Of a stretch of 43,161 nt of DNA, positions 4,670 through 32,797 are shown piece after piece (position 1 is the stretch's first letter; each line of letters opens with the position of its first letter). The position numbers and the translations under genes were made by a program. The notes under the pieces are model-generated. The model was not told the origin of the DNA. It saw nothing but the letters and a program-made list of their open reading frames with translations, and did no database searches. This DNA comes from Candidatus Electrothrix aarhusensis (lineage in GTDB: Bacteria > Desulfobacterota > Desulfobulbia > Desulfobulbales > Desulfobulbaceae). The DNA is taken from NCBI GenBank assembly GCA_004028505.1, contig MTKO01000085.1, forward strand, positions 1 through 43,161, written 5' to 3'.

Positions 4670-7600
4670 TTACTCGGCTTCACCAATAATCGTCATAAAA
4701 TGAGCCATGTACTCCTCCGGCATTTTTGCCGGATGGATTTCACTGCTCAATTCCTGCACCTCCGGTATCCAGACAGCGCTATGATCTCCATGAGCCAATT
4801 TTCTTAGCCGAGTACCATGCTCACTTACACTATAGTACTCAAAATATAATGTAAAACCTTCTGCAAAAAGTTCATACAAATACATGGATACTTCTATAGT
4901 CTCAAAGGGCATCGCCTCCTGCAGATGATTCACTTCAGCGTATATGCATACAAACTCACTCTTGTTGCTCCACTGAAAAATCTCAGGAAAACGAGTAAAC
5001 AGATAATGATCGCGTAACCTTGCTTGCCAACTGTAATACTGTGAAAAATAAATATTGCCGACCAGGTTCGAATCTTCCGTGGAAGTTAGAAACTCCTGTT
5101 GCTCCAAAAAATATTTCTTTCGTTTTGCAATATCTGGTGCGAATACAGAAGCCATTTTTGAAGTTATCCGTTTTTTTTCATTCAACCATTGTGTATTCTC
5201 AATAAATATTGGAGGAAGTTGAGCCAAATACTCATTTAAGTAATCCGGCAAGGGGGCTTTTTTTACGATTCCATACTGTTCAATGCTTACCCAGGTGGTG
5301 AGAAGTTTGCCGGAAGCGATATGTATCAAGGTGCCGTCTTCTTCTTTTTTTGACCAGTTAAAAGCAAGCGAAATAATAGAGTTTGTCAAATCTGTATCGT
5401 CCATCAGGCGAACTTCTCCGATGACTGCATCATAACTATCTAGATATCTTTCGATTTTGAATGACGACATACTCGTTACCATGCCCCATTGCCGGGATTT
5501 CATATCCATTAACAGCTGCTCTGATATCGGCGATAATGCTAATTCTCTCAACTCTCCCATCCAAACTGGAATGTTGGTAAAATATACTTTGCCGCCCGCC
5601 CCCCTACTGTTAACAAAAGTCGTTGTGAATTCATTTGATGTATTGTTGGACGCAATTAACAGCTCGTCACTGTCAATAATATTTTGTTGAGTATTATGCA
5701 GTTGCCCCATAACAGCCAGCATCCTCTCTTCTTTCAGGGTCAATGTTACCGGAAAGGTGAGAATATGGTGGGCACTGTATTGTTTACCGCATTGGAACAG
5801 AACTGTGCCATCATTCTCTCTTTTCACAATACTCAGCTGAGGGTGCCCTCCCAAGGCCTTGAAAGCTGCTTCTAACGCTGTCCATATCCTTGTCCCAGCC
5901 CTATCCAAGGTGTCCCCCTCCTCAATCATTTGGTTAAGAAGCAGGCTATTATTTCTGCTGAGCAGAGCGACCCAATCTTCTCGACTGCGTGCCGAGACAG
6001 TTTCAAGGTCACATCCCTGAACCCCCTGACCAGCAGTGCAGAGCACAGTGCTTTCATTATCAGAAAGAGAAATATTGATGTCGACATCAGGAGCTGCAAG
6101 ATATGGTCCGCCGGTATCAGACCATGAAAACTCCAGAAGGCTCTCTGAAATATTCAAGAGAGGCCTTACCGTCTCTTGTAACAGCAATAACTCCTGTTTC
6201 CGTCGTTCCCGTTTGTTGACTTGTTTCAGGCTGGGGATAAAACAGGAACCGATCTCCGGTGGAATAAAATCAATCGAGAGCGCTCTCTGTTTTACTTCTT
6301 TCTGCATTATCCATTCATCACGCTGACCGGGATGAGCCATCTCCTCAGCAGTAGGATAATCCTCCCGGTGCTCCATAAATTTCGCCAAGTAGCCCTTCAT
6401 CCGCTCAACAAGTTGTCCCTTTTTATTAAAAAGAGTTACAGTACCGGATATATCCTCAGCAGTACGTCTTTCAATAGTTATCCTTATCCATAGCCGTTCA
6501 TCCGTATCGACTGTCACCGGAAAGCGCTCTATGCTTTCAATCCTACGGGGCAGAGCCAAGTCTTTTGGGACAGCTATTTGTCCTGCTTGCAGAAGAGCAT
6601 CTCTAAGAAAGGGATCACCCAAATACCACGACCAAACTGGAGTTTCTGGATTTTTTATAGTTTCAGGATGCGGTCCTGTTCTAAAAAGACATACATCGGA
6701 AGCAAGATGGATGGTTTGCTGAATTCTTTGAAACAACGGCCCTTGGAACAATAGCCTACCGTTATATAAATCACGGTCTGAGGCAATATCAAGTGGAGCG
6801 CAGCGGACCGGAATTTCCTCTTGAACAGGAACACGGTCAGTGGTCAAAACAAAGGTCGCTGAAAAATGATCTTTGTTAAACCCCGTATGCTCCGACCTTA
6901 TCTGGACATGAACCTGCTGAGCACCCTCATTGCTTTGCTCCAGCACCTGAGCATGGATTTCAATCTCGGTTGCCGTCTCCTCAGTCAGGGTTATCGGTCG
7001 TTCCAACTCGATATTATTAATAGTGACTGTATCAAAATTTTCTGTGCCGGTGACGGCTCGCACCGCCTGAGCCATAGCTTCCAAGCCGAATACCATGGGG
7101 AAAAGATACGTACCACGCCAGATATGGTCCTTGACATATGGATCCCGTTCGAGGTCAAGCGAGTTCTGGAAATGAGTTCAATGCCTTGAGAATAGACCGT
7201 GATTTCTTCAAGAAACTGCAAATTTTCAGGTACCGGCAACGGGGGAGGAGCAAAGGTGTCCAGCTCAGAGGGTCTTGCGGTGACAACAACCTGTTTTTCA
7301 AAGGGATCATGAGTGACAAGGCGCAAAAAACGGGCTGTTCCCTCTTGTACCGGAATAGCATCCATTCCCATCTTACCGAGCCAGGCCGTGCTTCCCATTT
7401 TTACCCCCATACCCACCTCACCCCAGATACTGAAGGCAATGCTGAGCACAGAAGTCTGCGGAAAACGTTCCCCGTACTGCTGCACGACAAGCTCAAGTGC
7501 CTCATTGGAAAAACCGTACCAGCCGTTTTTGATCATACCGGACACACCGGTGATTGACGAAAAAGCGACAAAAAGTTTGGGTGGACGATCCTGCAGAGCT

Positions 7601-10600
7601 GCACAGAGGTTTATTGCGCCAGCCAGCTTAGGCGCTGTTTCTTTTAAAGCCTGATCCACGGATACTCTGCCCAGCTCACCCGGTCTGTTCAAAGCACTAC
7701 CGTGGATTACTCCTGTAATCTCTCCCAGGTCGGTACGTATCTGCCGAACAAGATCATATACGGCATCTGCATCGGTAATATCGCATTGATAATAATGGAC
7801 CGGCAGGTTGATCTCTTGAAAACGTCGTAGTGTCCGGGCAATTTCACTCTGCTCATTTTCTTCTTGGGGGGCGGCGGAACTGCCAACCAAGACCATCTGC
7901 ACCTGCACGGTACGGGCAAGCTCCAGAGCGCATTCCGCAGTAATACCTTTCGCTCCTCCGGTGACCAGAAAAACATCCTCTGCACTCCAAGAAATCTGTC
8001 TGTCCTGATACATCGCCGTATTCTGCAATACAGGCCTGGGAACGCGACGAACCACTTCAGCATCATATCCTGCGGCAGCGTACAGATCCGTCGTGGAGAG
8101 TTCCGCGATTGTCCGGGCACAAAGTTCGTCTGGGGAAATTCGAGGGCAAAAATCGAGAACTCGTATCTTGAGAGCCGGTTTTTCCAGGTGCATACTGGCT
8201 GCCAAAGACTTCGCCGAACACTGTTCAATGTTTGCCGTGACAGGTTGAGTGCCGAAAAAGCCTTCGCCAAACTGAATAACAGCAAGAGTATTGTTGTCGA
8301 GACCGCTGATATGAAAAGGAGTGAAAAAAACGGTGTGCAGTCGGACAACGTGTTCACTGTAATTTTCCCTGTCTATTATTCTGTTTGCTGAATGTCGCGG
8401 CAGCAGGACAATAACAGTGGTGAATCTATCTGAAAAAGAAGCTGCCGCCAAGCGTACCTCTGCAAACGAAGCGCATTCCACTACAGATGCAGCGTCTGCA
8501 AAGCGACGCTTGAGTTGTTCTGCAAGCCGCTGTTCTGCTGGCTCGGAAAGAATTAATATTTTTTCACTCTGCTGAGAGACGTTCTCTGCCCTTCTGTTTG
8601 CAGAAAGAGGCTCTGGCGAATAGGCAATGGTAAAATCACGCACCCATAACGGATATTTTGCAGGTGATGGCTTTTCCGTATCCGAGGCTGCATTCTGCCC
8701 GGCCTGATCATCACATGCCTTTTCTAGTACCTCCGCTATTTCAGCTAAACTGGCATTGGCATATTCTGCAACGTCAATTTGTGTGGCAGCGATACCTAAC
8801 TTTGCTGCCGCTTCGGCAATGAGTTCAGACGCCTTTATAGAATCAAGGTTCAGATCATCCAGCAGACAGAACTCCATAGATAGGCTCTCTTTGGGAAAAC
8901 CGGTTTGCTGTTCAATCAGATCAAAAAGCAATTGGGCAACAGTTGTCACTTCTACAAATGCATCTGTTGCCACCTTGCTAAGCTGATCCGCAGAGGACTG
9001 GATTTTGCCACCTGAGAGTTCTGTCATCGATACCGATTGCGGGTTTACATCCTGCAATTGCAATAGGCCATTCTCAGACATGTTATCAATATCCACTCTG
9101 ATAAGGCTCCCGAGAAATTGGCTACGCCTCTCTAGGTAGAACGCCAACGTTCTCTCTGAAATACCAGCGATGTCTGCTAAAATACGATCTGTCTTGCCAA
9201 ATTTTTCCAGTCCAGATAAATGAGCGCTCGGCACTATAGAGCTCTGCGCTTTTTGCTCTGAAAAATGCTCAGGAAAAGGACGCTCACAGGGATTGGTCAA
9301 AAAAAGGCGCTCATCAGCTGGTGTGAACGGGCGGACAAGACGATCATCATACAGGACATGCCAGTTAATCGTTCCTCCACGGACAAAATAGTTTGCCAGA
9401 AAAATATTCAGATCTCTATCTTGCTCTGGTTTTGTTTCAAGAGGAAAGCAGGTCGGCCCATCTTCTCCCTCTTGTTCATTTTTTTTGTCAATGTCGTTTG
9501 CAAGGATTGAGCGGGCAAGACCGGTCAACACCCTTCCCGGCCCCACTTCTAGCAGCAAGTCGCATTCCTTGCTCATTTCCTGAACTAAGGAAATACAATC
9601 AACAGGCGAGATCACCTGTTTTGAAAAATGCCTCCTCAAATCGCAGGCCAAGTCAACTTTGCCCCTTTGCAAACCACTAAAGAGTGCCGTTGTCAGCTGT
9701 TTCGGGTGTTCAGGAAGAAGTCGGGATTTGGCCAGCACCTGAGCAGCCTGACTGACAAACCGTGAATGGAAGGCATTGGCAACCGGAAGAAGTACACCCC
9801 GTAGCCCCTGCTCATTCGCATGACGGCAAGCCTGCTGAATGCAGGAGGGTTCGCCAGAGATAACCGTTTGAGAGGGACTGTTTTTATTCGCCACAACGGC
9901 ATATCCTTCCCCGGCATCAAGAATGGCCTGAGCCTGGACAGCTGAACAGGCAAGACTTGCCATGATTCCCGCAGTACCTCTGGCATCACCCTGTCCCGGA
10001 GTCATTGCCTGTCCTCGCAGTGCAGCAAAACCGATCAGCTCTTCTCTGGAATAGGCCCCGGCAGCATAAAACGCGGTCAATTCACCGAGACTATGCCCTC
10101 CGACTGCTTCAGGCTGTATCCCAAGTCGGGCCAGTTGCTCTAAACGGAGCATCGATGCCAAACAGAGAGCAGGCTGAGCAATCTCTGTTTGCTTGAGCTG
10201 CTCCTGCCAGCTGTTAACCTGCGATTCATCAAGCGCCCTCTCTATCGGTCGAAAGATAAAATCACTCAGCTGTTTTCCTTCTGGCCAACGCAGAGATTTG
10301 TCCATCGCCTTAACCAGATCCCTTGCCCAATCATGCCGCTGAACAAGCTGATGCCCCATATTAAGCTTCTGCGATCCTGGCCGGGAAATAGGAAGCCAAC
10401 ACGGTGACTCTGCACATCGTTTCCTATACAGATACCTAAACGAGGATCAAAAAAGGTTTGCTGGCCTTTGGGAGGAGATGTACGAAGGATATGGACAATC
10501 TTGGCAAGAGCGTCCAGAAGGATGTCGGGTGATTCCGCTATAACTGCTGCCCGGACCGGACCGCAGGTTGTATTATGCCCATAAAGGGTTGTAAGATGAG

Positions 10601-12204
10601 CAGCAAAGTCAAGGCGTTCCCCCTCACAGATATTGCGGGCAAGGCCTTCTGCCGTTTGCACTCTCCTCAATAATTTCTCAACAGTGGACGCACTGAAAAC
10701 AAAAAGTTCGGTGCGTTGATAATCTGCCAATAGCTTCTGTTCGCGGATTGCAGGCATCAATTTCGGGGAAGGAGCATCACCTGAAGCCAAGGCAAGGTGC
10801 GAATTAATACCGCCAAAGCCCATTCCAGAAACACCAGCTCGTAGAATTTCATGGGGCGGACGGATTTCTCCGTGCAGGAGAGGATAGAGGTTGGTTGCTT
10901 TGTTTGCAAAAACGGAATTGGGTTCAAAACAATTTGCAAGCGGAGGAAGAATCCGTTGATTTAACGCGATCACTGTTTTGATCAGGGCACCAATGCCTGA
11001 TGCCGCCTTGGTATGGCCGATAAGCGACTTTAATGAGGTTATCCCGCAACGACGAAGCGATGTTGTACCCTGTAGGGACACGGCATGCCGTGTCCCTACA
11101 CCGCTGTCCGTATTCATTGCCAGGGCTATGCCTTCCAGTTCGACTTTATCACCGACAGCCGTGCCTGTTCCGTGCCCTTCTATAAAATCAACATCGTTCA
11201 TATTCCAATCAGCTCGTTCATAGGCTCGTTGCAAGGCCCTAGCTTGCCCTTGAGCATTCGGGGCGGTCAAACCACCTTTCCCGTCTGATGAAATACCCCA
11301 ACCGTGCAATACAGCATAAACATAATCACCGTCGGCAACAGCGTCTTCGAGACGCTTCATCACCACAAAGCCGCACCCCTCTCCGGGCATAAATCCGTTT
11401 GCCCTGCGATCATAGACCCGCATATCCTCTGTGGCCAAAGCAGCGGTCTTGGCAAAACCGACCAGTTCAAAGGCGTCCAGACTAATATCCACCCCGCCTG
11501 CCAAGGCCAAGTCCATATCTCGGTTGACAAGATGTGTTGCAGCGGTTGCTGTCGCAATAATTGAAGAGGAGCAGGCCCCGTCAACAGTATAACCGCCGCC
11601 GTGCAGATCAAGATAATTACAGATTCTCCCGGCAATGGTATTGGACAGGCTCCGGCTAAGGTATCTTCTGTGATCGGCGTAAAAAAAGATTTATAATATG
11701 CCTCTGCTGTCCTAAGCAGGTCTGCGGCCTGTTCTGAAGACAAACCTTTTTCAAGGGCTGCTTTTTTCAGTACTCGACGAACAAAAGGCCAGCGGAGACG
11801 CATGCCCTCGGCTCGAGAATATTCACCAGTCAGGGTGTTTCCGAGGATGACCCCTGTTCGTTCCTTGGGCACAGATATTTTGCTGAATTTTGCATCGTTC
11901 AATGAGGCCAGAGCGACCTTGAGCGCCAGCCAATGCACAATATCAGCGGAGTCAAAGGTGGAACGAGGAATACGGTACTGAGCAGGATCAAAAGTAAATC
12001 CATCAATAAATCCGCCTTGCGGCAATATGTTTTGTCCGGTGCAGCAGGATCGAAATCGTAATAATCCGACGCAGGGAAACGGGCTTCCGGAAAAGGACGC
12101 AACTGCCGCCTTCTTGTGAGGATATTTTCCCAAAAAGAGCGAAGATCCTGTGCTCCTGGATAATGGCAGGCCATACCAATAATGGCAATCAAACTTGAAT
12201 TCAT
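4670..12204 (-). CDS. enediyne/polyene-type iterative polyketide synthase with fused thioesterase domains (four frameshifts)
   Basis: Four one-base gaps (near 12020, 11650, 10360 and 7165) split one gene of about 2512 residues; adding four bases makes the length divisible by three. Domains in order: KS with Cys in VDGACSSS (near 11573), His in EGHGTGT and in IGHTKAASG; AT with GHSLGEL (Ser codon near 10090); ACP with DLNLDSIKASEL (Ser near 8840); KR with VTGGAKGIT and YGFSNEAL; DH as a double hotdog, with DPYVKDH and later LRDALLQAGQ; PPTase with GCDLETV and WTALEAAFKAL (near 6016-5870). Two hotdog units follow, GGKVYFTN (near 5590) and NLVGNIYFSQYYSW (near 5050). The second resembles enediyne thioesterases of the CalE7/SgcE10 type. 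KS-AT-ACP-KR-DH-PPTase is the established PKSE order; fusion of the thioesterase to it is unusual. The likely product is a conjugated polyene released by the hotdog domain. The gene is last in a set with three envelope-transport genes. Breaks could instead mean a dying gene, but all catalytic motifs are intact. Confidence 0.8.
11072..11099. repeat. REP-like palindrome inside the KS coding region
   Basis: A perfect 28-bp palindrome runs from GTAGGGACACGGCA to its complement TGCCGTGTCCCTAC. It has the GTAG end typical of REP elements. It is translated in frame as part of VGTRHAVSLQG, a stretch with no counterpart between the VELEGIALAM and ITSLKSLIGHTKAA blocks of the KS. Confidence 0.8.
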
Positions 12205-12373
12205 CGGATATTTTTATAAAAGAAACCCTCCCCTGCACAGAGGTATAAGTAATTAAAGAGAGGTAACCTGTTTTCTTCATTCGAACAGGTCTTTGAACCG
12301 ATTCCCCCTTTTGCCTTTTTCTGGGAAGAGGCAAGGAACTGGCGGTGGCGGCAAGGAACAGGCTATTATTTAT

Positions 12374-13600
12374 TTAAAAAAAATATTGCAATTCAACGGT
12401 GAGCTGGCTGTCCTGTTCAAATGGTAACACAGCATCCTGCTCAGCTGCATCAAAAAGAAACAGGGCCTCCATATGCAGCTTCAGATGCTCACCAAAACGG
12501 CGATCCGCCTCTACTGAAAACATATATGTAGAAAACTCGACATCCTTCATAAGACCTGCCAAGATCTCGGTTCCGGCTGCATCGTTGAGGGCCAAGCGGA
12601 ATCCCCCTATGACATCATTATTAACAACTGTCAAGGATTTGTCCGCACGATCATCAAAGACATATTCCCCGATAATCCCGAGATCAGCCCCGCTCTCATA
12701 AATGCCGTAAAAAGTGTACTCAAAACCGCAAACTGCAGCAGCAAAGCTCCTTCCCTGGCCAGTTCGATACAGGGCTTCCCCTTTCAATAACCAATCACCG
12801 GCAGCCATTTGCACATCCAGACCGGTCTGGCCAATTTGGTGATAAGAGGGGAACAGAACAGGATGACGCATATCACCCCCCAGCAGAAGATTAGGCTCAC
12901 GAGATGTACCATTGAAATGATACAGGCCCAAATCAGCGTTACTAAAAGTATGACTATAACGCAAGGCAAAGTCAAGATGTGACTGCTCGGCAGCACTTTC
13001 GTACTGAGACAGGTTGGTATCAATGATCGGATCACTGCGAAGACGATCTTTTTCTCCAGGAAACGTCCGCTCCCGAAACCAAGGAAGAACAAAGGCCTCA
13101 ATCATGCCTTGCTTCTGCGGAACTGTAAGATGCAGCATGGGCTGCCCGAGTTTTTCCTCTCCAGTAAAATCCTCAACAGAATCTGTCTGATTGATAATAT
13201 CAACAAGATGAACAAACTCGGTAGCACCCCAGAAAACCTTGCTGATGCCAACTTGCAGCTCCCAGTCGTCAGTCGGATAGATAAAGCTTGCTTCCCGAAT
13301 ATCCCAATGGGTACGCTCATCCACATTACTGTCCAGCCGAACAAAGGATTTCAAGAGAACGCTTGATCCGCCTGTGAAGGCATGATACAGCTCAGGCTCA
13401 AGAACCACAGAGGCATTATGCTCCTGCTGGGCAGGGTATTGCGGTTTGTCCGGGAAATAACGCCCTTCAAGGACGATATTTCCAGCGAGTTCGACCCCAA
13501 ACGCCGACAGGTGAAACAGGAGAAAAAGAAAAACAAGAGGCGTTGCCGCTGTTATTAATGCGAATCGTGAATATTTTTTTCTGCGGCTCGTTATCTGCAT
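12374..13600 (-). CDS. outer-membrane beta-barrel protein (DUF1302-like)
   Basis: A 408-residue protein with a basic, strongly hydrophobic N-terminal signal sequence (RRKK, then about 18 apolar residues, cleavage likely near residue 35). Alternating amphipathic strands follow, with a terminal aromatic residue (LQYFF), the hallmark of a barrel inserted by the Bam complex. Motifs such as DDWELQVGISKVFWGATEFVHLVDIINQ recall DUF1302-type outer-membrane proteins. The gene lies between the LolA-like gene and the polyketide synthase on the same strand. Together with the RND gene this suggests an envelope route for a lipid-like product. A GC-rich hairpin just upstream (13636-13657) may lower its expression relative to the transporter genes. 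The exact cargo or pore role cannot be read from sequence. Confidence 0.75.
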   Translation of the reverse strand: MQITSRRKKYSRFALITAATPLVFLFLLFHLSAFGVELAGNIVLEGRYFPDKPQYPAQQEHNASVVLEPELYHAFTGGSSVLLKSFVRLDSNVDERTHWDIREASFIYPTDDWELQVGISKVFWGATEFVHLVDIINQTDSVEDFTGEEKLGQPMLHLTVPQKQGMIEAFVLPWFRERTFPGEKDRLRSDPIIDTNLSQYESAAEQSHLDFALRYSHTFSNADLGLYHFNGTSREPNLLLGGDMRHPVLFPSYHQIGQTGLDVQMAAGDWLLKGEALYRTGQGRSFAAAVCGFEYTFYGIYESGADLGIIGEYVFDDRADKSLTVVNNDVIGGFRLALNDAAGTEILAGLMKDVEFSTYMFSVEADRRFGEHLKLHMEALFLFDAAEQDAVLPFEQDSQLTVELQYFF

Positions 13601-13681: not shown

Positions 13682-14494
13682 TTATCTCGCTCTCTTCAAA
13701 CTGTTCTTATTAAAATCATTATCCGTAAGGCCTGTATGGAATCGATACGTGCTGTAGAGCAAAACTGTGGATTTACCACTCTGATGATTCATCATATGCA
13801 TTTCCCCGGCTCGCCAGTATTTACCCTCATATTGCTTATACCCCTTCATCGTCAGGGTCTTCAGCAGACTGTTTTTGCGATCATAAAAATCCACCTTTTG
13901 AATACGATACTCGTCTTTATCTCGCCACACCATCTGTCGGCTGTAGCCTGAGTTCTCCGCATCAACAGGGTAATATTCAGACACTGTGCAGGCATGACCG
14001 TCAAGCTCTTCATCTCGAAGATACTTATAGGTATATTCCTCAATCTCCTGGCTGGAAATATCCTCATAGGAAAATTCACTCCCGACAAAGGAGCCCGATT
14101 TATTGCGGGAGTTGATACGTTTCACGCGTTTCAGGGCAGGCAAGTATAACCATTGTTCATCATCACCGCTTTTATGGGAAAAGGTCAGCAAGGCTGTCCC
14201 TCGAATATCGCGAGGCGTGTGAAAAACAGACAGGCTCTTGTCGCCGTCACCTTTTTTTTCCAAAACTTTATTAGTCACCTCCCGTCGGCTCTCCTGGCCA
14301 TTTCTGTTCCGCAGAATCATCACCATATCAGTAACCAAATCTCCAAAGCCCTGATCGCGGCGTTCAGCTTCCATAATAATAGCCAAACCTTTTTCTTCAG
14401 GAGTCTCTGCCCGACTGATTTTTTCGCAGAGTGGTGAAAAAAATATACCGAGTAGAAGCACCACTACTCCAGGCCAGTCTGTAAAAAATTTCAT
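13682..14494 (-). CDS. outer membrane lipoprotein-sorting protein (LolA-like)
   Basis: A 270-residue exported protein. The start at ATG 14492-14494 is chosen because AGAGGA lies seven bases upstream and it begins a proper signal peptide (hydrophobic core, cleavage likely after SRA near residue 29). The mature part follows the PF17131 pattern of outer-membrane lipoprotein-sorting proteins, with DMVMILRNRNGQESRR, DIRGTALLTF, QWLYLPALKRVKRI, GSEFSYEDISS and KVDFYDRKNSLLKTL. This family is structurally related to LolA/LolB and is commonly encoded beside MMPL-type RND transporters, where it is thought to shuttle a hydrophobic ligand across the periplasm. It sits 58 bp downstream of the RND gene here. 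Confidence 0.88.
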   Translation of the reverse strand: MKFFTDWPGVVVLLLGIFFSPLCEKISRAETPEEKGLAIIMEAERRDQGFGDLVTDMVMILRNRNGQESRREVTNKVLEKKGDGDKSLSVFHTPRDIRGTALLTFSHKSGDDEQWLYLPALKRVKRINSRNKSGSFVGSEFSYEDISSQEIEEYTYKYLRDEELDGHACTVSEYYPVDAENSGYSRQMVWRDKDEYRIQKVDFYDRKNSLLKTLTMKGYKQYEGKYWRAGEMHMMNHQSGKSTVLLYSTYRFHTGLTDNDFNKNSLKRAR

Positions 14495-14552
14495 AAAACT
14501 ATCCTCTTGTTCTGAATAAGATATTCCCCCTTTGCTCGGGCCCGAAAAAACA

Positions 14553-16895
14553 TTAATCAGTCTGTGCGGGAACAGATGATATAGATGGTGCAGATGGTGC
14601 AGAACGATCGAATTGTAACAGCAGGACAGGAAGAAAAAAGAAATCAAGCAACAGAGCAAAGCTGATGGTGATTGCTGTCATGCTGCCCATATGCGCATTA
14701 ATTTGAAACCCTGAACAGGCAAGAACGATAAAACCGCCGACCAGAGTCACTGTAGAAATCCACATAGGAGCGGCAACGGTCCTGAAGGCAAAACGAATAG
14801 CGTCTTCCGGAGACATAGCCTGTTCAGTTCTTCCCCGCTGATATTTAGAAAGAAAATGAACTGTATCGTCCACAACAATACCCATAGTCATGGCGATGAG
14901 AACAGAAACCGCGAGCCCGACCTGCCCGACGGCATATCCCCACACCCCAAAGCCCATAAATGCCGGGGCAATATTGGGGATCAGGCTGAGCAGACCCAAT
15001 TTAACGCTCCGCAGAACAATGACCATAATTATCGAAATAAGGCCCAGAGCAAATAAAGAGGAAGAAAGCATGGACTTAATATTGCGCTCCGAAAGGTGAG
15101 CAAACATCATGGTTACACCAGAACCCTGTGTATACATGGAAGGCGGGGCGTTTTCCTTAAGCCATCCCCGACCTGCAACTTCCAGCTCGCGCATCTCCCT
15201 GGTACTTGCCCCGACAAGAGAAACAGTCATTCTGCTGGCTGATTTATCAATATTGATTCGGTCGTTTAAATCCAAACCAAAGGGCAAGTTCATCTCATAC
15301 AAAAGCAGATATTGGGCTGCCAGATTCCGCTCTTCCGGGAGCCGGTAGTACACAGGATCGTTATCATGCATGTTGCGGTTAATCTGTTTCATGATGTCCG
15401 TAAAGGTGTATACATGACAGACATACTTTTGACGGCGAAACCAATCGGCAAAGGCCTCAATTGTGTGCTGATACTCGGGTTCGTTGACTCCTCCTTCTCC
15501 TCCTGAATTGAGATCCCAGTCAATCATGTACATACCGGTCAGGTTCTCGGCGGTAAAATCCGTGGCGCGGCGGAAGTCAAAATGCGGACTGAAAAACTTA
15601 ACAAAATCATCATCCAGCTGAATACGAGAAATCCCTGTGGTGGCTCCGATGATCATGATGATCATAGTCCAAAAAATCGCGGTGCGTCTGCGCACGATAA
15701 AATCGGCAAGGCGCTCATAGATGTAAGATGAAGGTGAGATGGATGGAGATGACTTCGCCGCTTTGAGCGGCAAAATAGCGGCCAAGGCTGGCAGGAGCAA
15801 GACTGAATAAAAAAAAGCGGCAATAATACCCATTGCAACAACATTGCCAAGATCGCGAAACGGAGGAGCATCTGAAAAATTCATGGTCAGAAAGCCCACA
15901 GCTGTGGTCAGGCTGGTAACCAGCACCGGTTGAAAATTGATCCTGATGGAATGCTCAATGGCCTGATGCCGGTCAAGTCCGTTTCGCATCTGGTGAAACA
16001 TGGTGGTCAGAATATGGACGGAATCAGCAACAGCCAAGGTAAGTATAATGGTCGGGGCATTGGCTGATGCAGGATTCATGGGAATACCCAGCCAGCCAGC
16101 TAAGCCGAGCCCGGTCAGGGTGGAAAAAACAATCACCAGAAAGGTTAAGCCCATACCCAGTGCGGAACGCAAACAGATGGCCAGTATTAGAAGAAGAAGC
16201 CCGCACATAATAGGAACCAGCAGCGTGATGTCCTCTTCGGTAGCCTGCTCAAAGGTCGTATCAATCATCACCACCCCGGTGACATAGATATCCAGCTGGG
16301 GATATTTCCGCTGCATCTCAGCCTGTAAGGCATAAGCCGCTTCAGAGATCGTATCTGAAACCTTACCGTTTTCATCCGGCTTAATAACATTGACATTCAC
16401 ACCGGTTACATGGCCGGAGAGAGAAATAAGGCGTCCTTTCAGCAACGGCTCGTTCAGAGCGATGTCACGTACTTCCTGAAGTTGCTCATCAGTGAGCTGT
16501 TCTGCATTCTCCACCAGATCTTCAACGATCAGATCATCACCCTCTACCTTGGTATGCTGATAGTTGGTTATGGAATCTACTCTGCTAGAATAGGGCATTT
16601 TCCAGGATTTTTCCGTAAGATCCTGTACAGCACCCAGTACATCACGGGTAAAGACATTTTTGGATTTCGGAGCAATCGTAAAAAAGACGTTCTCGAACTT
16701 GGTATAGGTCTGCTCCAAGGCGTTAAAGGCCTGGAGTTCAGGATTGTCCTCGGAAAAGAACATCCGGCTGTTGCTGGAGAAGGTAAGAAAACGGGTACCG
16801 TAGCCGGTTCCCGCCACAACGAGCAGGGAAAGGAGAATCAGCGGAATGCTGTATTTGATGACAAATCGGCCTAGACGTGCTTCAAATGTTTTCAT
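14553..16895 (-). CDS. RND/MMPL-family transporter
   Basis: A 780-residue inner-membrane protein with the duplicated RND layout: one N-terminal transmembrane helix, a large periplasmic domain, a block of helices (about 215-385 with LLVPIMCGLLLLILAICLR, ALGMGLTFLVIVFSTLTGLG), then a second copy (about 400-770). The two central blocks carry NAPTIILTLAVADSVHIL and AMTMGIVVDDTVHFLSKY, where the acidic residues match proton-relay positions of RND pumps. It belongs to the MMPL/HpnN-like branch that exports lipids. The start has AAGGA at good spacing. It is the first gene of the set ending in the polyketide synthase. The cargo is inferred from neighbours only. Confidence 0.9.
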   Translation of the reverse strand: MKTFEARLGRFVIKYSIPLILLSLLVVAGTGYGTRFLTFSSNSRMFFSEDNPELQAFNALEQTYTKFENVFFTIAPKSKNVFTRDVLGAVQDLTEKSWKMPYSSRVDSITNYQHTKVEGDDLIVEDLVENAEQLTDEQLQEVRDIALNEPLLKGRLISLSGHVTGVNVNVIKPDENGKVSDTISEAAYALQAEMQRKYPQLDIYVTGVVMIDTTFEQATEEDITLLVPIMCGLLLLILAICLRSALGMGLTFLVIVFSTLTGLGLAGWLGIPMNPASANAPTIILTLAVADSVHILTTMFHQMRNGLDRHQAIEHSIRINFQPVLVTSLTTAVGFLTMNFSDAPPFRDLGNVVAMGIIAAFFYSVLLLPALAAILPLKAAKSSPSISPSSYIYERLADFIVRRRTAIFWTMIIMIIGATTGISRIQLDDDFVKFFSPHFDFRRATDFTAENLTGMYMIDWDLNSGGEGGVNEPEYQHTIEAFADWFRRQKYVCHVYTFTDIMKQINRNMHDNDPVYYRLPEERNLAAQYLLLYEMNLPFGLDLNDRINIDKSASRMTVSLVGASTREMRELEVAGRGWLKENAPPSMYTQGSGVTMMFAHLSERNIKSMLSSSLFALGLISIIMVIVLRSVKLGLLSLIPNIAPAFMGFGVWGYAVGQVGLAVSVLIAMTMGIVVDDTVHFLSKYQRGRTEQAMSPEDAIRFAFRTVAAPMWISTVTLVGGFIVLACSGFQINAHMGSMTAITISFALLLDFFFLPVLLLQFDRSAPSAPSISSVPAQTD

Positions 16896-25413: not shown

Positions 25414-26763
25414 TTAAGCAGCTGGTTTCCATTCCTTAAGGAAAGCAGGTAGATGCCCGGCTTCACGAGGACCGATGGTGATGGTCCAGTCAGGCAGCTC
25501 TTCTTCCAGCTCACCCTTGATGGTGGCCAGATACCCCGGAATAATCAGCTCACGATGTTTTACTTTGTCCAAAATTCCGGACTTGTTGACAAACATGGCG
25601 ATCAGATCAGCACCGAATTTACCAGCAGCCCAAGCAGTCAACACAGACAGACCTTCAGTATCCTTAATCAACAACCAGCTGGGCACCTTCGAGCCTTCAA
25701 TCTCACCAGAAACGATAAAGTAGGTGAGCGAGAAGTTACAGGTGATCAGTACCGGTGAATTCTCATCAGGTCCGGTGACCGGATAGATGTCCTCAGCCAC
25801 AACCATTGGCCGCTGCGGATCAGTAAAGATGTTCAGCTGCTCAAGCAGAAGCGGGAACAGGATGTCACCCTGAAGATCGGAGAAAACGGTAATGCCTGCG
25901 TACTTGGCGATCAGAACAGAGCCAATCATGGCCTCCATCATCAGATCATCACACATCTCACAGGGAAAGGCGATGGTCGGAAAACCAAGCGGCTTGAACT
26001 TCTCCTTAACCGCAGAGCGACGAGCCACAACATTATCCTCAAAGGCTCCCTTAAGGGTCCGAGCACCGGTGTCGATGACCATATCCTTGACCCCGGCGGC
26101 AAGCAGCTTATCAGCTGTCTCTACCAGATCATCAAGGTTTTTGCCCTTCACACCGATCGCACAACCGGTTGTCTTGGCAAGGTCGACAAAGGCATCAACA
26201 TTTTCGCCGGTGGCACCGTAAAGCAACGGCTTATTCGCACCGCAGGCCTCGGCTCCGGCCTTAAGGCTCTCCACATTATCACTCATCAGAATGATAGCCT
26301 GCTGAGGAGCACCTTCCATAACCTTCTTAGCCATATCAGCCAGAGAAGCACCACCGTTGTCCTTGATAGCGACCAAATTATTGCGCATCATCACCCCGAC
26401 ACGCTCGTACACAAAATCGTTGGCCCGCTTAATTTTGCCATCAATCGAGGCGGCATCCTCGTCTGTCGCAATCAGGACAGCCAAGCCGGTCTGGTTTTCA
26501 AACCGCTTCTCATGCCGGAATTGGCAGGTTTCACCGCCTGCGGTGAACTGCGCATCACCGGCACCAATTTTGATGGTACGAATCGGAGGAGCCGAAGCCT
26601 CGCCGATGGTAGCCTTTGCCTCATCACTTACATAAGGACATGCTTCTATTTCGGCCTGCCCGGCAGCCACTTTCATGGCAAAGGCGAGACAGGTAGGTAT
26701 GTCACACTCGCCGCAATTCTTCTTGGGCAGCATCTTGAGTATCTGTATACCGGTTAACGCCAT
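25414..26763 (-). CDS. acsC: corrinoid iron-sulfur protein large (gamma) subunit, AcsC
   Basis: A 449-residue subunit of the corrinoid iron-sulfur protein, which carries the methyl group from methyl-THF to acetyl-CoA synthase on cobalamin. Seen: the N-terminal [4Fe-4S] motif PKKNCGECDIPTC (C17, C20, C25, C42), a TIM-barrel middle with TGLAVLIATDED and DNGGASLADMAKKVMEG, and a C-terminal cobalamin-binding region ending near YLATIKGELEEELPDWTITIGPREAGHLP. The length is normal. AGGAGG lies seven bases before the ATG. It is in the carbon-fixation cluster, but a nuclease-like gene separates it from acsB, and three accessory genes separate it from hdrA. Confidence 0.96.
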   Translation of the reverse strand: MALTGIQILKMLPKKNCGECDIPTCLAFAMKVAAGQAEIEACPYVSDEAKATIGEASAPPIRTIKIGAGDAQFTAGGETCQFRHEKRFENQTGLAVLIATDEDAASIDGKIKRANDFVYERVGVMMRNNLVAIKDNGGASLADMAKKVMEGAPQQAIILMSDNVESLKAGAEACGANKPLLYGATGENVDAFVDLAKTTGCAIGVKGKNLDDLVETADKLLAAGVKDMVIDTGARTLKGAFEDNVVARRSAVKEKFKPLGFPTIAFPCEMCDDLMMEAMIGSVLIAKYAGITVFSDLQGDILFPLLLEQLNIFTDPQRPMVVAEDIYPVTGPDENSPVLITCNFSLTYFIVSGEIEGSKVPSWLLIKDTEGLSVLTAWAAGKFGADLIAMFVNKSGILDKVKHRELIIPGYLATIKGELEEELPDWTITIGPREAGHLPAFLKEWKPAA

Positions 26764-26865
26764 TATCTATCCTCCTGTTCAAAAACCAGAATCAAAACAC
26801 CGGGGATACGTTTCCCTGTCTGCCCGGTTGCTGTCAATTTATTCTTACGTACTTTTTCGATTTCT

Positions 26866-27465
26866 TTAATTATGCTTACGGGTATCGGCTTGGCTGAACA
26901 GCCAGTTCAATACCTCAAGAATTTTTTGTAAATTTTCTGTGGCTGATATCTGCGTCGGGTCTTTAGTAAAAACGTTGTGCTCAAACTTACCGAATTCCCA
27001 AGCCTTACCAGTTGTTACGACGCCAAAACAAATTTCCGCCCCCTGTAACGATGCTGCATACATTTCCGCCAGAGTCTGTGCCCAGCCTTCGTTCCATTTT
27101 TCCTGTTTGGCCTCCATAACACACAGAGGAGGTATGGCCATCACCCCGTACTTTGTTTTCGGTGCAATCAGGTAATCTGGCTCGCCGACCAAACTCTGTT
27201 CCTGGTCAACATTAAAGGGAACATGCGACCAGACAAGGAGCTGTTTGTGTTTTTCCGACACTGCATCTAATATCTGGCTGATAATATGTTCGCAGATAGA
27301 GAATTCGTTAACAAAATAGGCATCTTCTCGTAACTTCTCTTCAATACGGGAAAAAATATACTCCAGTACCTGAATTTCTTTTGTTTCTATAAAAGATTCG
27401 GCTCGTACTTCGATATCAAATTTCTGGCTTACTTCGCCGACTGATTTGAAGGCACTGTATGGCAT
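26866..27465 (-). CDS. PD-(D/E)XK nuclease-like protein, hypothetical (inside the acs cluster)
   Basis: A 199-residue protein. An acidic helix (VNEFSICEHI), then SLVGEPDYLIAP (E95, P96, D97), then PLCVMEAKQEKW (E118, K120) give a PD-ExK signature. A helix follows, WAQTLAEMYAASL, and a strand with CFGVVTTGKAWEFGKF. This layout resembles small hypothetical nucleases widespread in cyanobacteria and filamentous sulfur bacteria. It shares architecture with the gene at 23538-24158 (ExK strand, helix, then a strand around GVVTxGxxWxF), so the two may be distant relatives. It sits between acsB and acsC with gaps of 162 and 102 bp on the same strand, and probably rides on the acs transcript. The substrate is unknown. 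Confidence 0.65.
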   Translation of the reverse strand: MPYSAFKSVGEVSQKFDIEVRAESFIETKEIQVLEYIFSRIEEKLREDAYFVNEFSICEHIISQILDAVSEKHKQLLVWSHVPFNVDQEQSLVGEPDYLIAPKTKYGVMAIPPLCVMEAKQEKWNEGWAQTLAEMYAASLQGAEICFGVVTTGKAWEFGKFEHNVFTKDPTQISATENLQKILEVLNWLFSQADTRKHN

Positions 27466-27627
27466 GAAATATTCTCAAGTTTAAAGTATGACGTTATATC
27501 TCAAGTCATTCGATTATTCCTGCGAAAAGATATATCAAAAATCCCAACCCTCAATTTGGGGCGATAAACAGGGGCAAATAATTACATCTGCCCCTGCTCC
27601 AGCATATCCTCCTCAAAAAGAAGATAA

Positions 27628-29835
27628 TCACCCCATAGCTGCTTCCATTTCCAGAGCAGGATGACCTTTCTCCTTCAGGAAGGCAAGAATCTCTTCCTCT
27701 GTGGTGCCCTGCTCTTCTGTGGCGATCATGTCGTAAAGCTCCGGCATGCCCTCAAACTCACATAAGGCCTTGAGCTTCTCGCTGATCTCATCCTTGAGGA
27801 TTTTCGGCATCCAGACCATACGCTTAACGCCACCTTCAGACTTGAACAGTTTTTTACTGGACATGTAATGCTTGGACACACCCATGAAACCCGGAGTCTG
27901 CATACCGCCGCCAGCCATACCAGCCAAGGTGGTAAACTTCATACCGGAAGGGGTCATACCCATGTAATCACGGTTCACCACCATGATTCCATTACATTGC
28001 GGCAACATGGCTGCAATAGCCTCAAAACAACCACAGGCGGTCATGGGATTATTCATCAAAGAATAGCAACTGACCTCAGGCACTGCTCCTCGGGAAGCTT
28101 GGTTAACAAACTCATTAATCCCTGTAAAATAGCCGTTATCCGGATCCGTACACTCGCCTTTATCAATGGGCTGATTCGGGCCTGTCGGATTGATCTGATA
28201 AGAAGCCTTGCCGTCCAACCAGTTATAAGCACCGCACATCCCGATACGCTCCGGTGTGATCACGCAGACATGGCTGGGGGCAAAGGACTGGCACAGGGTA
28301 CAGGAGTAGAAAACATCTTCGGTCTCATCCGTCATGGAGCCAAGGCGCAGGTCACGCTCTTCATAAACCTGCTTGGCGATCTCCATAACCTCTTCCACCT
28401 TGTCCTGCACAGTGTAGATTTTTACCTGCACCTTGTCTAAAATCGCACCAAATTCCTGATGCAACTTACCGTGCAGGACTACACCGAGATGCTTAAAGGA
28501 AAAGCCTTTTTCTACAGCTCCCTTGCCGATACGAACCCACATGATATTTCGCTGACCGATATGCATGATGCCCTGGACATAGTTCATCAGATGATGAAAC
28601 TGACGCTCCAAGATAGGCTCGAAATCCGACTGCATTTCGCGACCAGCAACCTCGACCAAGATACCAATGGGCAGATTCTGCCCTAATTCGATGTCGGAGA
28701 TATCCGGTCCTTCCAGAGTCACCAGACCGTCTTCAATCTCGTCCATGTCTTTGGAGATCAAAACCTCCACGCCGGTGGTCCGTCCACCGCCGCATTCCAT
28801 GAACAGGTCATCCTTACGGATACGCTCACCCTCAAAGGCCGGACCAAAGGACATGGGAATATCAATTTTGGCAATATTGACCTTCAGGCCACGCACCTCA
28901 ATGGCCTTCTGGACGATCTCGTCATGGGGCACGTTGGAGACCACATGCTCGTAGGTACAGATACCTGTAGGCAGAATCTCAGGAATATCATAGTCTGAAA
29001 TGGTCGGAAATCCCCAGTTAATGGCACCAGCTGCATTGGCATACCACTCGTCGCTGACCTGACCAAAAGGCATAACAAAGGCGTAGGTTCGGTCTTTATT
29101 GTAAATAAGGTTCGCTCTGGAATCACCCGGCTTCACACCACCGAAGGCCATAGCCACACGACAGGCAAAACCGATGGAGAAAACCACGGAGGTATAGCGC
29201 CTACCAAAGGGCACCAGACGGGTGTTCCAACCAACCTGCACGCCGTTTTTTACAAGCATATCAGGCATATAATTCCCATCGGAATCAGTATGCATGAAGA
29301 TGTAAAGATTTTTCTCTTGCAATTCCAAGGCGATTTTGGAGGCAACTTCAGGATCTGACGGAGAGCCAACAATAGCAGCAAAGCCCGGAGCCGTGCCATC
29401 AACAAACTCGACGCCGCGTTTCCGGAAGATCACGTCGTCTGCTGCACCCAGCCAGATATTATCTGCGGTGGGATCTTCGGTCTTGGTGTAATAATCCGGT
29501 GAATTCAGGTACTCAATTGCCTCGTACATTTCTTCGGCAAAATAGGTAGCCATTCCAGCGTCCAAGGCAGGTGCCAAGTAAGGCAGCCAGATACCTTCGG
29601 AAACAACAGCTGGCAAGAGCTTGCGACATTCCTGAAAAATATCTTTCATATCGCCGAGTTTTTCCACCTTAGCACCAAGCATGGAATAAATAATCGGCAA
29701 ATAGTATGCAGTATTTGGAAAGGAAACTTCCTGTTCAGGGCCGTACTTCTTTAAGGCCTCCTCGTAGGACGCTTCAGCCATATCCACGATTTTTTGAGCA
29801 CCGCGTATCGCTGCGGAACAGATGATCTTCGACAT
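27628..29835 (-). CDS. acsB: CO-methylating acetyl-CoA synthase, AcsB
   Basis: A 735-residue catalytic subunit that joins a corrinoid-bound methyl, CO and CoA to acetyl-CoA at the nickel-iron A-cluster. Cluster ligands are visible in DVFYSCTLCQSFAPSHVC, RIGMCGAYNWLDG and MTACGCFEAI, the last being the CGC motif that holds the nickel sites. The N-terminal domain starts with SKIICSAAIRGAQKI. The C-terminal block GMTPSGMKFTTLAGMAGGG is typical of bacterial AcsB. The length matches the family and no lesion is seen. The gene follows metF-acsD by 125 bp, where a short hairpin lies, and has AAGGGAG upstream of its ATG. Confidence 0.97.
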   Translation of the reverse strand: MSKIICSAAIRGAQKIVDMAEASYEEALKKYGPEQEVSFPNTAYYLPIIYSMLGAKVEKLGDMKDIFQECRKLLPAVVSEGIWLPYLAPALDAGMATYFAEEMYEAIEYLNSPDYYTKTEDPTADNIWLGAADDVIFRKRGVEFVDGTAPGFAAIVGSPSDPEVASKIALELQEKNLYIFMHTDSDGNYMPDMLVKNGVQVGWNTRLVPFGRRYTSVVFSIGFACRVAMAFGGVKPGDSRANLIYNKDRTYAFVMPFGQVSDEWYANAAGAINWGFPTISDYDIPEILPTGICTYEHVVSNVPHDEIVQKAIEVRGLKVNIAKIDIPMSFGPAFEGERIRKDDLFMECGGGRTTGVEVLISKDMDEIEDGLVTLEGPDISDIELGQNLPIGILVEVAGREMQSDFEPILERQFHHLMNYVQGIMHIGQRNIMWVRIGKGAVEKGFSFKHLGVVLHGKLHQEFGAILDKVQVKIYTVQDKVEEVMEIAKQVYEERDLRLGSMTDETEDVFYSCTLCQSFAPSHVCVITPERIGMCGAYNWLDGKASYQINPTGPNQPIDKGECTDPDNGYFTGINEFVNQASRGAVPEVSCYSLMNNPMTACGCFEAIAAMLPQCNGIMVVNRDYMGMTPSGMKFTTLAGMAGGGMQTPGFMGVSKHYMSSKKLFKSEGGVKRMVWMPKILKDEISEKLKALCEFEGMPELYDMIATEEQGTTEEEILAFLKEKGHPALEMEAAMG

Positions 29836-29909
29836 TGAGACAACTCCCTTATTGGTATACCTTATGGTATAGACGGTTCAGAGTTCAGGTTCAAGACTTG
29901 AGCCTTGCA

Positions 29910-29941
29910 TTACGTAATTACTTTATTACGTTATTACGTAA
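29910..29941. repeat. inverted repeat between acsD and acsB
   Basis: The arms TTACGTAAT (29910-29918) and ATTACGTAA (29933-29941) are perfect complements around a 14-base AT-rich loop. The hairpin lies in the 125-bp gap upstream of acsB. It may be an mRNA processing or stability element, but no protein site is recognised. Confidence 0.5.
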
Positions 29942-29960
29942 AACAAGTGGGCAATCTTCA

Positions 29961-32677
29961 TTAACCGGCCAAGCCATTAATGAGCGCCTTGGTCATATTG
30001 ACCGCCTTGGGATGGCGCATGATCAGGACTTCACCACCAGCCATAAGCATACAGGATGCTGTAATCGCCTCCATCATAATGCCGCGACTTTCCTGGTCAC
30101 CCAACATCTCATCAGTGGGCAGCCCAACCTCTTTGGCCTTCCAAACCTCACGTCCGAGGTTACAGATAATCGGCACCTGAAGTTTTTCATCTTTCTGAGT
30201 CAATGCAGCAATACGAATACGCTCCATAACGGAATAGGTATATTCAATACCGTAGCCCAATGCACCGACTGACGGATCCATCATCACCGTATCAAGAGGT
30301 ACACCGAGATTTTCCAAAAGGATGTTTAACTGCTTAGCTAGGTTGACATCAATGGGGGAGGCTGCAACCATGGGATGCTGAAAGGCCATTGCCGTTGCAC
30401 CGATAGCGCGATAATTTGCATCTTCCAAGGGAGCCAAACAGACTTTTTTATCACCGATCAGCGAAGTAATTTCACGAAGGGTCTCGGTATCCTTTTCAGC
30501 ATTACCGCAACCCCAGACGATGATCGGTACATCAACAGCCTCAATTACAGCTGCTGCGTCCTTTGCTGCATCTGCTGCCGAGCGATTTTCTCCGTTAGGA
30601 TCTGTCCCGTTGAGCCAGATATTTAGGGCATCAGCTTTATAGACATCGACACATTTTTTCGCCCAATCCACCGGGCTGTCCATAACATCGTCAAAGTATT
30701 GGGTCAGGGTGTCAGGCCAGTTATCCGGGCGAACATCCATGATTTCCATAGCGATGAGCGGCTTATTGCCCATCTCGCCTTCAAAGAGATGGAAGGGCAG
30801 TGAGGTAGCTCCACCAACGGTAACTGTGTTGTCGCCATTACCCATAGTTACTTCGCGGATCGCGCCGGAATACGCCGTCTTGTAGCTGGCAGCTGGCACC
30901 TTGGTCACGCGCTCGGCAAAAGGTGTTTCATCGGTGGACAGAACCGGAGCATCCAGATCAGAAGGAGCAGCAACCGAGGCTGCCTTTGCTTCAGCGGCCT
31001 TCTTTTCTGCTTCTGCTTTTGCTTTTGCTTGAGCAGCAGCTTCTGCGGCAGCCTTTTTCTTTGCTTCCGCCTCAGCCTCTGCCTTTGCTTGAGCTTCAGA
31101 TTTTGCCTTGGCCTTAGCTTCTACCTCGGCCTTGGCAGCGGCTTCTGCTTTTGCCTTGGCTTCCGCCTGAGCCTCAGCTTCGACCTTTGCCTTGGCTTCT
31201 GCCTCGGCTTTGTCAGCCGCCGCCTTGACAGCGGCATCGTCTGTTTTCTCTTCAACCGCAGGTGCAGCCGGAGCGGCAGGTGCAGATACAGGTGCAGGAG
31301 TTGCTCCGGCAGGTTGTTGTGTCAGCACCTCCGGTTCTTTATTCAGTACCGAAGCTGCATCAACAAAGTTCATCAATGCATCAAACTGATCATCGCTCAG
31401 GCCATAGGCCTTTTTCAAGGCATTCAGGCCCTGATTGACTGATTCCAATGCCGCACGGCGGCCTTTTTCATTCATCGCATGTTCTCCTGCATCATCTGGT
31501 GTCAATGTACATGTGCAATGTCCAATAACAGCAGTTTTACTTGTCGCTTCGCCGGACTGAGCAATCTGACCGGCAAAAGCGGCAGCTTCAGTCCGGGCAG
31601 CAGCTATAATCTTCTCAGCTTCGGCCTTGGCTTGTTCCAGAACATCATCAGCAGCACCCTGGTCAACAGCAGTTCGTACCTCTATGGTTTCCCTAACTGT
31701 TTCTCCAGCCGCAACAGTGGGTTCAGGTACGCTTGCGTCAGGTGCGCTTGCTGCATCATCAAAGGTCGGACGCGGCAGTAGACCCGCTCTCTCACAAATC
31801 TCAGGAACCGCCTCCTCCCACTCGATGGCCATGACATGAACACCGGCCACACCGGGAATCTCTTTGACCTGATTGATAATATCAACACAGATATTAATTC
31901 CTTCCTGCTTTTTATCCTTTGCCCCCTGCATCCGCTTGATAACTTCATCGGTTACATCCATGCCTGGCACAAATTTCTTCATGTAGCGTGCCATTCCCAC
32001 CGACTTGGGTGGAGTAACGCCAGCAAGAATATAGCCTTTTCATGCAGGCCCAGCTCGCAGGCCTTTTTCATGAACTCGGCAAAGCGATCCAGGTTATAAA
32101 TTATCTGGGTCTGAATAAAGTCAGCGCCGTTGGCAATCTTTTTTCCCATCCGCACCGCTCGAAACTCATGGGGGTAGGCAAAGGGATTGGCAGCAGCACC
32201 AAGGAACATATCTGTTGTCTTACCCTTGATTTCCTCGCCGCACTGAAATTTTTTCCCGTCCCGCATATCCCGGATCATCCCCAACAGCTGGATAGAATCC
32301 ATATCAAATACGCCTTTTGAACCGGGATGATTACCGAACTTCTGATGATCGCCGGTCAGGCAGAGCAAGTTTTTCAATCCCAGTGCAGATGCAGCCAGTA
32401 AGTCCGACTGCATACCGATCCGGTTTCTGTCCCGACAGGTCATCTGAATAACCGGCTCCACGCCTTCAGCCTGGGCCAACAGCCCAGCACCGATAGACGA
32501 CATCCGGACTATCGCAGTCTGACAATCCGTGATATTAACCGCATCCACATTACCTTTCAGGATTCTCGCCTTCTCTCTGACCACATCAGGGTCACTGTTC
32601 TTCGGCGGTCCTAGCTCACCGGTCACGGCAAATGCGCCGCTCCTGAGCACCCGCTCCAAATTGCTCCCCGATTTCAT
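29961..32677 (-). CDS. metF-acsD: MetF (methylene-THF reductase) continuous with AcsD, corrinoid protein small subunit (one frameshift)
   Basis: One missing base near 32035 (before YILAGVTPPKS) splits the gene; restoring it gives about 905 residues and a length divisible by three. Residues 1-300 are MetF, which reduces methylene-THF to methyl-THF: AVTGELGPPKNSDPDVV, VDAVNITDCQTA, NLLCLTGDH and GADFIQTQIIYNLDRF are visible. Then come a helical region, a segment of about 90 residues made almost only of Ala, Lys and Glu (30975-31247), and AcsD, the corrinoid-protein small subunit (from about 30930: PLIAMEIMDVRPDNWPDTL, NIWLNGTDPNG, PLDTVMMDPSVGALGYGIEYTYSVMERIR). No stop separates the two parts. 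An internal ATG at 31475 with AGGAG upstream could produce AcsD separately. The start ATG 32677 follows AGGAGG. Separate MetF and AcsD are normal, so the fusion is unusual. Confidence 0.85.
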
Positions 32678-32753
32678 CAATCCTCCTTATGCCTGATCCG
32701 CCCTGCGGGCAGAAATTTGTTCTGCAGAACTCAATGCCTTAACTTTTTGTGCC

Positions 32754-32781: not shown

Positions 32782-32797
32782 AGTATCAATGCCCTTT

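Follow-up and report, generated by a model that had tools for sequence, protein, structure and literature searches.

A 43,161-nucleotide contig of the marine cable bacterium Candidatus Electrothrix aarhusensis (MTKO01000085.1; the whole stretch is hereafter called the window) carries on its minus strand, at 4670..12204, a gene for an iterative type I polyketide synthase (PKS). Its domains follow the order ketosynthase (KS), acyltransferase (AT), acyl carrier protein (ACP), ketoreductase (KR), dehydratase (DH), phosphopantetheinyl transferase (PPTase) and two hotdog domains (HD1 and HD2), and the gene is readable in five pieces separated by four frame breaks. From its sequence we propose, with a probability of about 0.75, that the protein is a self-activating, iterative and self-releasing single-protein synthase of conjugated polyenes. 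This proposal is supported by the domain order, the catalytic residues, the presence of the gene throughout the genus, low ratios of nonsynonymous to synonymous substitution rates (dN/dS), the kinship of the thioesterase, and the position of the KS with that of SgcE, the enediyne PKS of the C-1027 pathway (NZ_CP013739.1).

Domain order, release domains and proposed chemistry

The synthase gene begins at 12204 and stops at 4670, and its reading frames, all on the minus strand, are 11902-12204 (from the ATG), 11363-12373, 10269-11690, 6994-10446 and 4673-7177 (the last four given from stop to stop). The pieces were searched with Pfam separately and with the frames unrepaired, and intact copies from congeners were used for alignment. 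Matches to ketoacyl-synt and Ketoacyl-synt_C are spread over three pieces: the KS N-terminus at 11902..12204 (PF00109 positions 4-64, 49.7 bits), a second piece at 11363..12373 (PF00109 positions 53-127, 25.5 bits; the coordinates are those of the stop-to-stop frame, and the match covers residues 98-172 of the open reading frame from 12334), and a third, with the KS-AT linker, at 10269..11690, which was recognized by Pfam and by the motifs DGACSSS with the nucleophile (11562-11582), EGHGTGT (11160-11180) and GHTKAAS (10998-11018). These are followed by the AT at 9418..10446 (PF00698 Acyl_transf_1, 86.8 bits; GHSLGE at 10081-10098), the ACP at 8644..8955 (PF00550 PP-binding, 18.3 bits, against a cut-off of 20.8; LDSIKA at 8830-8847), the KR at 7225..8001 (PF08659, 100.9 bits; TGGAKGIT at 7939-7962 and YGFSNE at 7501-7518), the DH at 6335..7177 (PF14765 PS-DH, 54.7 bits; GLEAMAQ at 7067-7087) and the fused PPTase at 5717..6319 (PF01648 ACPS, 17.6 bits, against a cut-off of 25; QGCDLE at 6002-6019). 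The window has a single PP-binding stretch, and no enoylreductase (ER) domain was found in the protein.

When the intact congeners were aligned with SgcE, the Cys and two His of the KS, the GHSLGE of the AT, the Ser of the ACP, the Tyr of the KR, the His of the DH, and the CDxE and W..E...K of the PPTase corresponded, and the sub-threshold ACP and PPTase calls are borne out by this agreement. Thirteen of the 14 motif patterns sought are present in the window's own PKS frames, the DH His pattern being the one that was not found. Because the same domain order stands in one unbroken frame in five congeners, it is not a product of chance. The initial annotation had read KS-AT-ACP-KR-DH-PPTase followed in the same frame by two hotdogs, and Pfam, the SgcE alignment and the intact congeners uphold both the order and the shared frame.

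The two hotdogs, HD1 at 5192..5659 and HD2 at 4673..5191 (SNLVGN at 5054-5071), were each represented by a profile of six relatives (A4 and A5, respectively) and searched against all PDB sequences. The top six matches of HD2 were CalE7 (1.6e-23), 4I4J (an ACP-polyene thioesterase), the entries 5VPJ and 9CCR, which carry only the label 'Thioesterase', and two DynE7 sequences, while the seventh was a 4-hydroxybenzoyl-CoA thioesterase at 1.1e-3. HD1 matched the same six thioesterases, with E values from 4.7e-9 (5VPJ) to 2.4e-6, and its next match was at 0.89. Both terminal segments thus match enediyne-type thioesterases best, and the resemblance previously claimed for the last hotdog is confirmed. 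HD1 alone gave no Pfam match, and the 4HBT_2 hotdog match in the window pieces reached 20.9 bits, below the 25.5 cut-off. A comparison of HD1 with HD2 by hhalign shows them to be homologous (probability 97.5, E 5e-12). The NLVGN of HD2, whose first Asn is catalytic in CalE7, is identical in all six rows. At the corresponding position of HD1, which was located by eye, the three Electrothrix rows carry Gly, L041 and L074 keep the Asn, and Laceyella (L045) shows Thr. Because Gly replaces the conserved Asn in Electrothrix, HD1 is probably structural and HD2 the releasing domain, and HD1 is most likely a degenerate copy that pairs with HD2.

Established domain chemistry suggests how such a protein would work. 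The fused PPTase would arm the ACP serine, the AT would load malonyl units, and the KS would condense them repeatedly, with the KR and DH acting in every round so that one double bond would be left per round, since the protein has no ER domain to remove it. HD1 and HD2 would pair as an internal double hotdog, in which the enediyne-type HD2 would hydrolyse the chain off the enzyme, and decarboxylation of the freed chain may then yield a linear polyene or polyenone; such a step has been reported from enediyne systems and has been proposed in the case of RerAB. Aryl polyenes protect against oxygen stress, and by analogy the product is plausibly a cell-envelope polyene with the same protective role.

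Characterised polyene systems offer several points of comparison. In Rhodococcus erythropolis PR4, RerA (KS-AT-ACP-ACP-KR-DH) and RerB (PPTase-Y-TE, where TE is a thioesterase) make conjugated polyenes of 6-9 double bonds, up to C22 nonaenes, whether expressed in E. coli or assayed in vitro. Mutation of the KS or the PPTase abolishes the colour, mutation of the TE gives an orange that may stem from chains still bound to the enzyme, and cells with an artificially fused RerA-RerB were more strongly coloured (PMC11563203). The domain order of the Electrothrix PKS equals KS-AT-ACP-KR-DH plus PPT-Y-TE, and RerB (61.5 kDa) is near the size of the Electrothrix PPT-HD1-HD2 segment (549 residues). By this analogy, domain Y would correspond to HD1, and the Electrothrix chain would carry six to nine double bonds. 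In contrast to the one natural polypeptide of Electrothrix, RerAB consists of two proteins and comes from an actinobacterium. The initial annotation had known of no described product for such an enzyme in this kind of organism; RerA/RerB are a described pair with the same domain set, though in two proteins and in another phylum. Its description of the host as a Gram-negative anaerobe needs qualification, since part of the cable-bacterium filament reduces oxygen (PMC7873302, in part) and cable bacteria are therefore not strict anaerobes. The aryl-polyene clusters of E. coli, which also make a conjugated polyene, hold an RND transporter, a LolA-like chaperone and a thioesterase (PMC8253772, in part), but they use dissociated KS, KR, DH and ACP enzymes and an aryl starter, with no type I megaenzyme, whereas Electrothrix has one multidomain protein. 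CexF, the celluxanthene synthase of cellulolytic anaerobes, likewise forms a polyene and is a type I PKS of the iterative kind, but has a separate PPTase gene and an aryl starter, and a thioesterase is nowhere mentioned by that word in its description (PMC12144888, in part).

Distribution of the fused synthase and kinship of its ketosynthase

The C-terminal half of the PKS was found in 10 of 57 relatives, comprising all eight genomes searched within the genus, 1 of 28 other members of the family and 1 of 21 other members of the order. It forms a single unbroken frame of 2456-2601 codons in five of the eight genus genomes; the remaining copies are in two frames (G006), a fragment (G005) and, in the window genome (3.7 Mb in 143 contigs), five pieces. 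Between the window and its congener G003, dN/dS was 0.19 for the KS piece and 0.25 for the AT-KR piece, with the DH-HD piece saturated, and it was 0.10-0.16 for four neighbour genes.

Two peptide patterns were used to scan one genome from each of 84,980 species; this returned 208 relatives, and the analysis covered the best 80 of them. All eight domains are in one frame at 41 of these 80 loci; at 21, PPT-HD1-HD2 share a frame and the rest is elsewhere, cut or broken, one has HD1-HD2 without the PPT, and 17 have the PPT without both hotdogs in frame, some of them at contig ends. By record title, which may mislead for metagenome-assembled genomes, the 41 eight-domain loci belong to Desulfobacterota, Thermoactinomycetaceae, Cyanobacteria, Caenarcanales, Omnitrophota, Myxococcota, Bdellovibrionales, Nitrospirota, Bacteroidales and several Proteobacteria, about ten phyla in all, which rules out a fusion unique to Electrothrix. 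Six loci (L031, L033, L034, L038, L041 and L097) have an extra C-terminal flavin amine-oxidase-type domain, with up to ~3200 codons in one frame. Within the stretches fetched, cyanobacterial relatives, for the most part the ones that lack hotdogs, have DUF1702, carotenoid-oxygenase-type, halogenase-like and aldehyde dehydrogenase neighbours. The carotenoid-oxygenase-type genes stand close to the PKS at five fetched cyanobacterial loci, all without hotdogs, and in Gloeothece (checked with Pfam for one), and such neighbours fit a polyene product. Searches of an open-access library listed no paper that describes the fused family.

To place the KS, a quick tree of 89 rows and a careful tree of 37 (52 of the 89 dropped) were built from enediyne-PKS-type (PKSE-type) and PfaA-type sequences, after leaving out duplicates (L036, L037, L039, L040, L043, L103, L131, L133 and L135-L138), loci numbered below L025 except L001 and L002, and rows with fewer than ~380 aligned KS residues. 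The 89-row tree separated a PKSE-type group of 75 rows from 10 PfaA-type rows (values of 96 and 91 in the Shimodaira-Hasegawa-like approximate likelihood ratio test, SH-aLRT); L139 and L140 sit on very long branches in it, and joins of long branches were flagged. Of the 10 PfaA-type rows, only L124 is from a genome above the curated PfaA cut-off. The PKSE-type group contained 42 fused-hotdog, 11 cyanobacterial (without hotdogs), 9 split, 7 Electrothrix, 4 actinobacterial and 2 other rows. In the 37-row tree the PfaA-type, the Electrothrix and the actinobacterial rows, the last including SgcE, each formed one group (100/100). The PfaA-type KS formed one group in all of 200 bootstrap trees, with the Electrothrix KS falling, like that of SgcE, on the opposite side. 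Accordingly, the KS does not belong with PfaA, a placement that the initial annotation had named as a possible refutation.

Within the PKSE-type rows, the actinobacterial KS group branched with five fused synthases, mostly from Desulfobacterales (98/97), and not with Electrothrix. An exclusive clade of Electrothrix and actinobacterial PKSE sequences was disfavoured by the approximately unbiased (AU) test (p-AU 0.021), leaving the Electrothrix KS outside the actinobacterial enediyne clade, although the placement of the actinobacterial group is provisional because its branch is long (1.07). The AU test did not reject a tree in which a branch has Electrothrix and PfaA on its same side (p-AU 0.43); since PfaA is the sole outgroup, this result bears only on the point at which the PfaA branch attaches to the PKSE-type group, and not on where that group has its root.

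Neighbouring genes and alternative readings

Directly upstream of the PKS, and on the same strand, lie genes for an outer-membrane-protein-like product (OMP, 12374..13600; C-terminal Phe, no Pfam match), a LolA-like protein (13682..14659; PF17131, 219 bits) and an MMPL/RND transporter (14553..16895; PF03176, 127.7 bits). This arrangement recurs in six of the eight genus genomes and, together with the RND transporter and LolA-like chaperone of the E. coli aryl-polyene clusters (PMC8253772, in part), raised the possibility of a dedicated exporter that places the polyene in the outer membrane, as proposed for ApeM/ApeL. On balance this is doubtful. The OMP was matched in 21 of 57 relatives, the eight genus members included, and at all seven fetched loci from outside the genus (L164-L170, Desulfobulbales) the three genes adjoin without a PKS, five of them in genomes lacking a PKS match; the MMPL at one such locus (in G008) is only 30% identical. 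Conversely, G002 retains the PKS with only an OMP remnant beside it (C95, L171), and in G005 the ~1 kb that separates the OMP from recQ contains no PKS (C69, L156), the PKS fragment being on another contig. Because the three genes can be found apart from the PKS, and the PKS apart from an intact set of them, the idea of an exporter dedicated to this polyene was set aside; the three genes appear to form a separate cassette that the PKS possibly uses, and the idea of an envelope polyene is weakened accordingly.

A further possibility is that the released polyene is an intermediate which a separate flavoprotein of the amine-oxidase type oxidises further. A PF01593-type domain is fused behind the hotdogs at 6 of the 80 loci and encoded by a separate neighbour gene at 3 of the 80, and the window genome (G000) has PF01593 matches elsewhere, but nothing of the amine-oxidase type was seen next to the Electrothrix PKS, and PF01593 is a very common domain, present in 14 of 14 control genomes. 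We consider this additional step rather unlikely.

The four frame breaks within 7.5 kb, set against the unbroken neighbours MMPL, LolA, OMP and recQ, might mean that the locus is a pseudogene, decaying and unused in the window strain while the copies of its congeners are used. This too is unlikely. Indel errors exist elsewhere in the same assembly, since alaS is in two frames there, and beside alaS (C80, L148, 8937-14711) a KS gene and an adjoining amine-oxidase-type gene are both in pieces. In addition, 13 of the 14 motif patterns are still readable in the window PKS, and dN/dS is low in two of its three pieces, the third being saturated. We therefore lean, short of proof, towards assembly error as the origin of the breaks.

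The window copy is also mosaic, with a block at 5000..9100 (minus strand, ends approximate) in which the identity profile and AU tests point to an ACP-to-HD2 half from a divergent allele. Identity to the nearest congeners, G003 and G006, is 79-92% from MMPL to the AT and again in recQ, whereas from ~9000 to ~5300 the sequences are ~64-71% identical over shortened stretches or do not align, apart from some short pieces of higher identity; by 4700, identity is restored to 83-87%. The window grouped with G003 and G006 in the KS tree (96/95), and in the AT tree these were its nearest rows, without resolution. Forcing the three together was rejected for the KR (p-AU 3.5e-5) and for DH-HD2 (p-AU 5.1e-5), for clades chosen after the identity profile was known, and the KR and DH-HD2 trees placed the window outside a group of the five others. 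Because both flanks regain the expected identity, an exchange of the ACP-to-HD2 half by recombination fits better than an assembly chimera.

Enediyne PKS cassettes consist of E3/E4/E5/E/E10 (PMC5181780, in part), and CalE8 makes polyenes that CalE7 releases (PMC3107222, in part); enediyne-type genes have been noted in a methanotroph (PMC8788690, in part). The Electrothrix PKS shares the KS-to-PPTase order and motifs of the E protein with SgcE and CalE8, and the E10-type hotdog thioesterase family with CalE7, here fused and doubled. These features, and a KS on the same side as SgcE, would suit a PKS that builds the core of a genuine enediyne and has its tailoring genes elsewhere in the genome, but this is very improbable. 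E3 (DUF1702) was found in none of the eight genus genomes, while its model gave matches in 3 of 6 controls, namely C-1027 and two cyanobacterial genomes in which relatives of the synthase occur, and E4 and E5 were each found in 0 of 8, while both rang strongly in another Streptomyces plasmid (the E5 control was weak in the same two cyanobacterial genomes). In C-1027 these three genes adjoin SgcE, whereas the neighbours of the Electrothrix PKS are the transport cassette and recQ; SgcE itself stops after the PPTase, has its thioesterase as a separate single hotdog, and places its KS on a separate long branch, and the exclusive clade noted above was disfavoured. An enediyne core synthase was accordingly rejected on E3/E4/E5, and of the enediyne/polyene-type PKS initially annotated, the polyene-type half remains.

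The probability of a PfaA-like polyunsaturated fatty acid synthase is close to negligible, and it was ruled out by the KS trees: the KS-AT is distantly related and the PfaA model TIGR02813 matches an intact congener at 559.7 bits, but this is far below the 1010.1-bit cut-off, the PfaA KS form a separate group in both trees, the PPTase is fused, the thioesterases are of the enediyne type, only one ACP is seen, where PfaA systems have several and a PfaD partner (PMC3098273, in part), and no PfaD turned up in the eight genus genomes, a weak negative. PfaA-type KS genes do occur in a family member of another genus (G012:C1, L151; 3.6 Mb in one contig), in which the Electrothrix synthase has no match.

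Several observations count against the reading of the Electrothrix PKS as a single-protein polyene synthase. The Pfam scores of the window's ACP, PPTase and thioesterase are all below the curated cut-offs, and the copy is interrupted at four places. The likeness to RerAB rests on domain order, compared by description rather than by sequence, and RerA has two ACPs where one is seen here. The MMPL-LolA-OMP genes are not tied to the PKS, and the absence of PfaD carries little weight, since its model also stayed below the cut-off in four genomes with PfaA-type genes and rang in 3 of 14 controls.

Other loci were observed in passing. The window also holds carbon monoxide dehydrogenase/acetyl-CoA synthase and folate genes at 25414-35876 (CdhD, CdhC, Prismane family, tetrahydrofolate dehydrogenase/cyclohydrolase), a bacterial LRR-Roc-COR (Roco) protein at 38016-40019, and, at 12-408, a tandem 45/90-base repeat encoding SSVSGG-rich repeats. 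In E. gigas, a 2698-codon frame encodes a Condensation-KS-AT-DH-ER-KR-ACP hybrid (G002:C106, L150:5601-13697).

Significance for cable bacteria and for enediyne-type synthases

An open-access full-text search returned no paper combining 'cable bacteria' and 'polyketide synthase', and in term searches the word 'polyketide' was absent from the searchable text of the cable-bacterium genome papers PMC12093952, PMC10926707 and PMC10030654. The fused family offers a one-polypeptide model for the hand-over of a polyene from an enediyne-type synthase to its thioesterase, and raises a possible origin of enediyne synthases outside the actinobacteria. At its most speculative, and with long odds against it, a wider picture would make the one-piece synthases with their built-in double hotdog an old family spread over about ten phyla, with the actinobacterial enediyne PKS and its separate E10 as a split and specialised offshoot, and would have the copy kept throughout the genus of marine cable bacteria, with its recombining processing half, make a polyene of the current-carrying envelope that is protective at the oxic end. 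Research on cable bacteria is directed at their conductive envelope, and a genus-wide polyene synthase predicts in them a coloured, redox-active lipid class that should be detectable by extraction.

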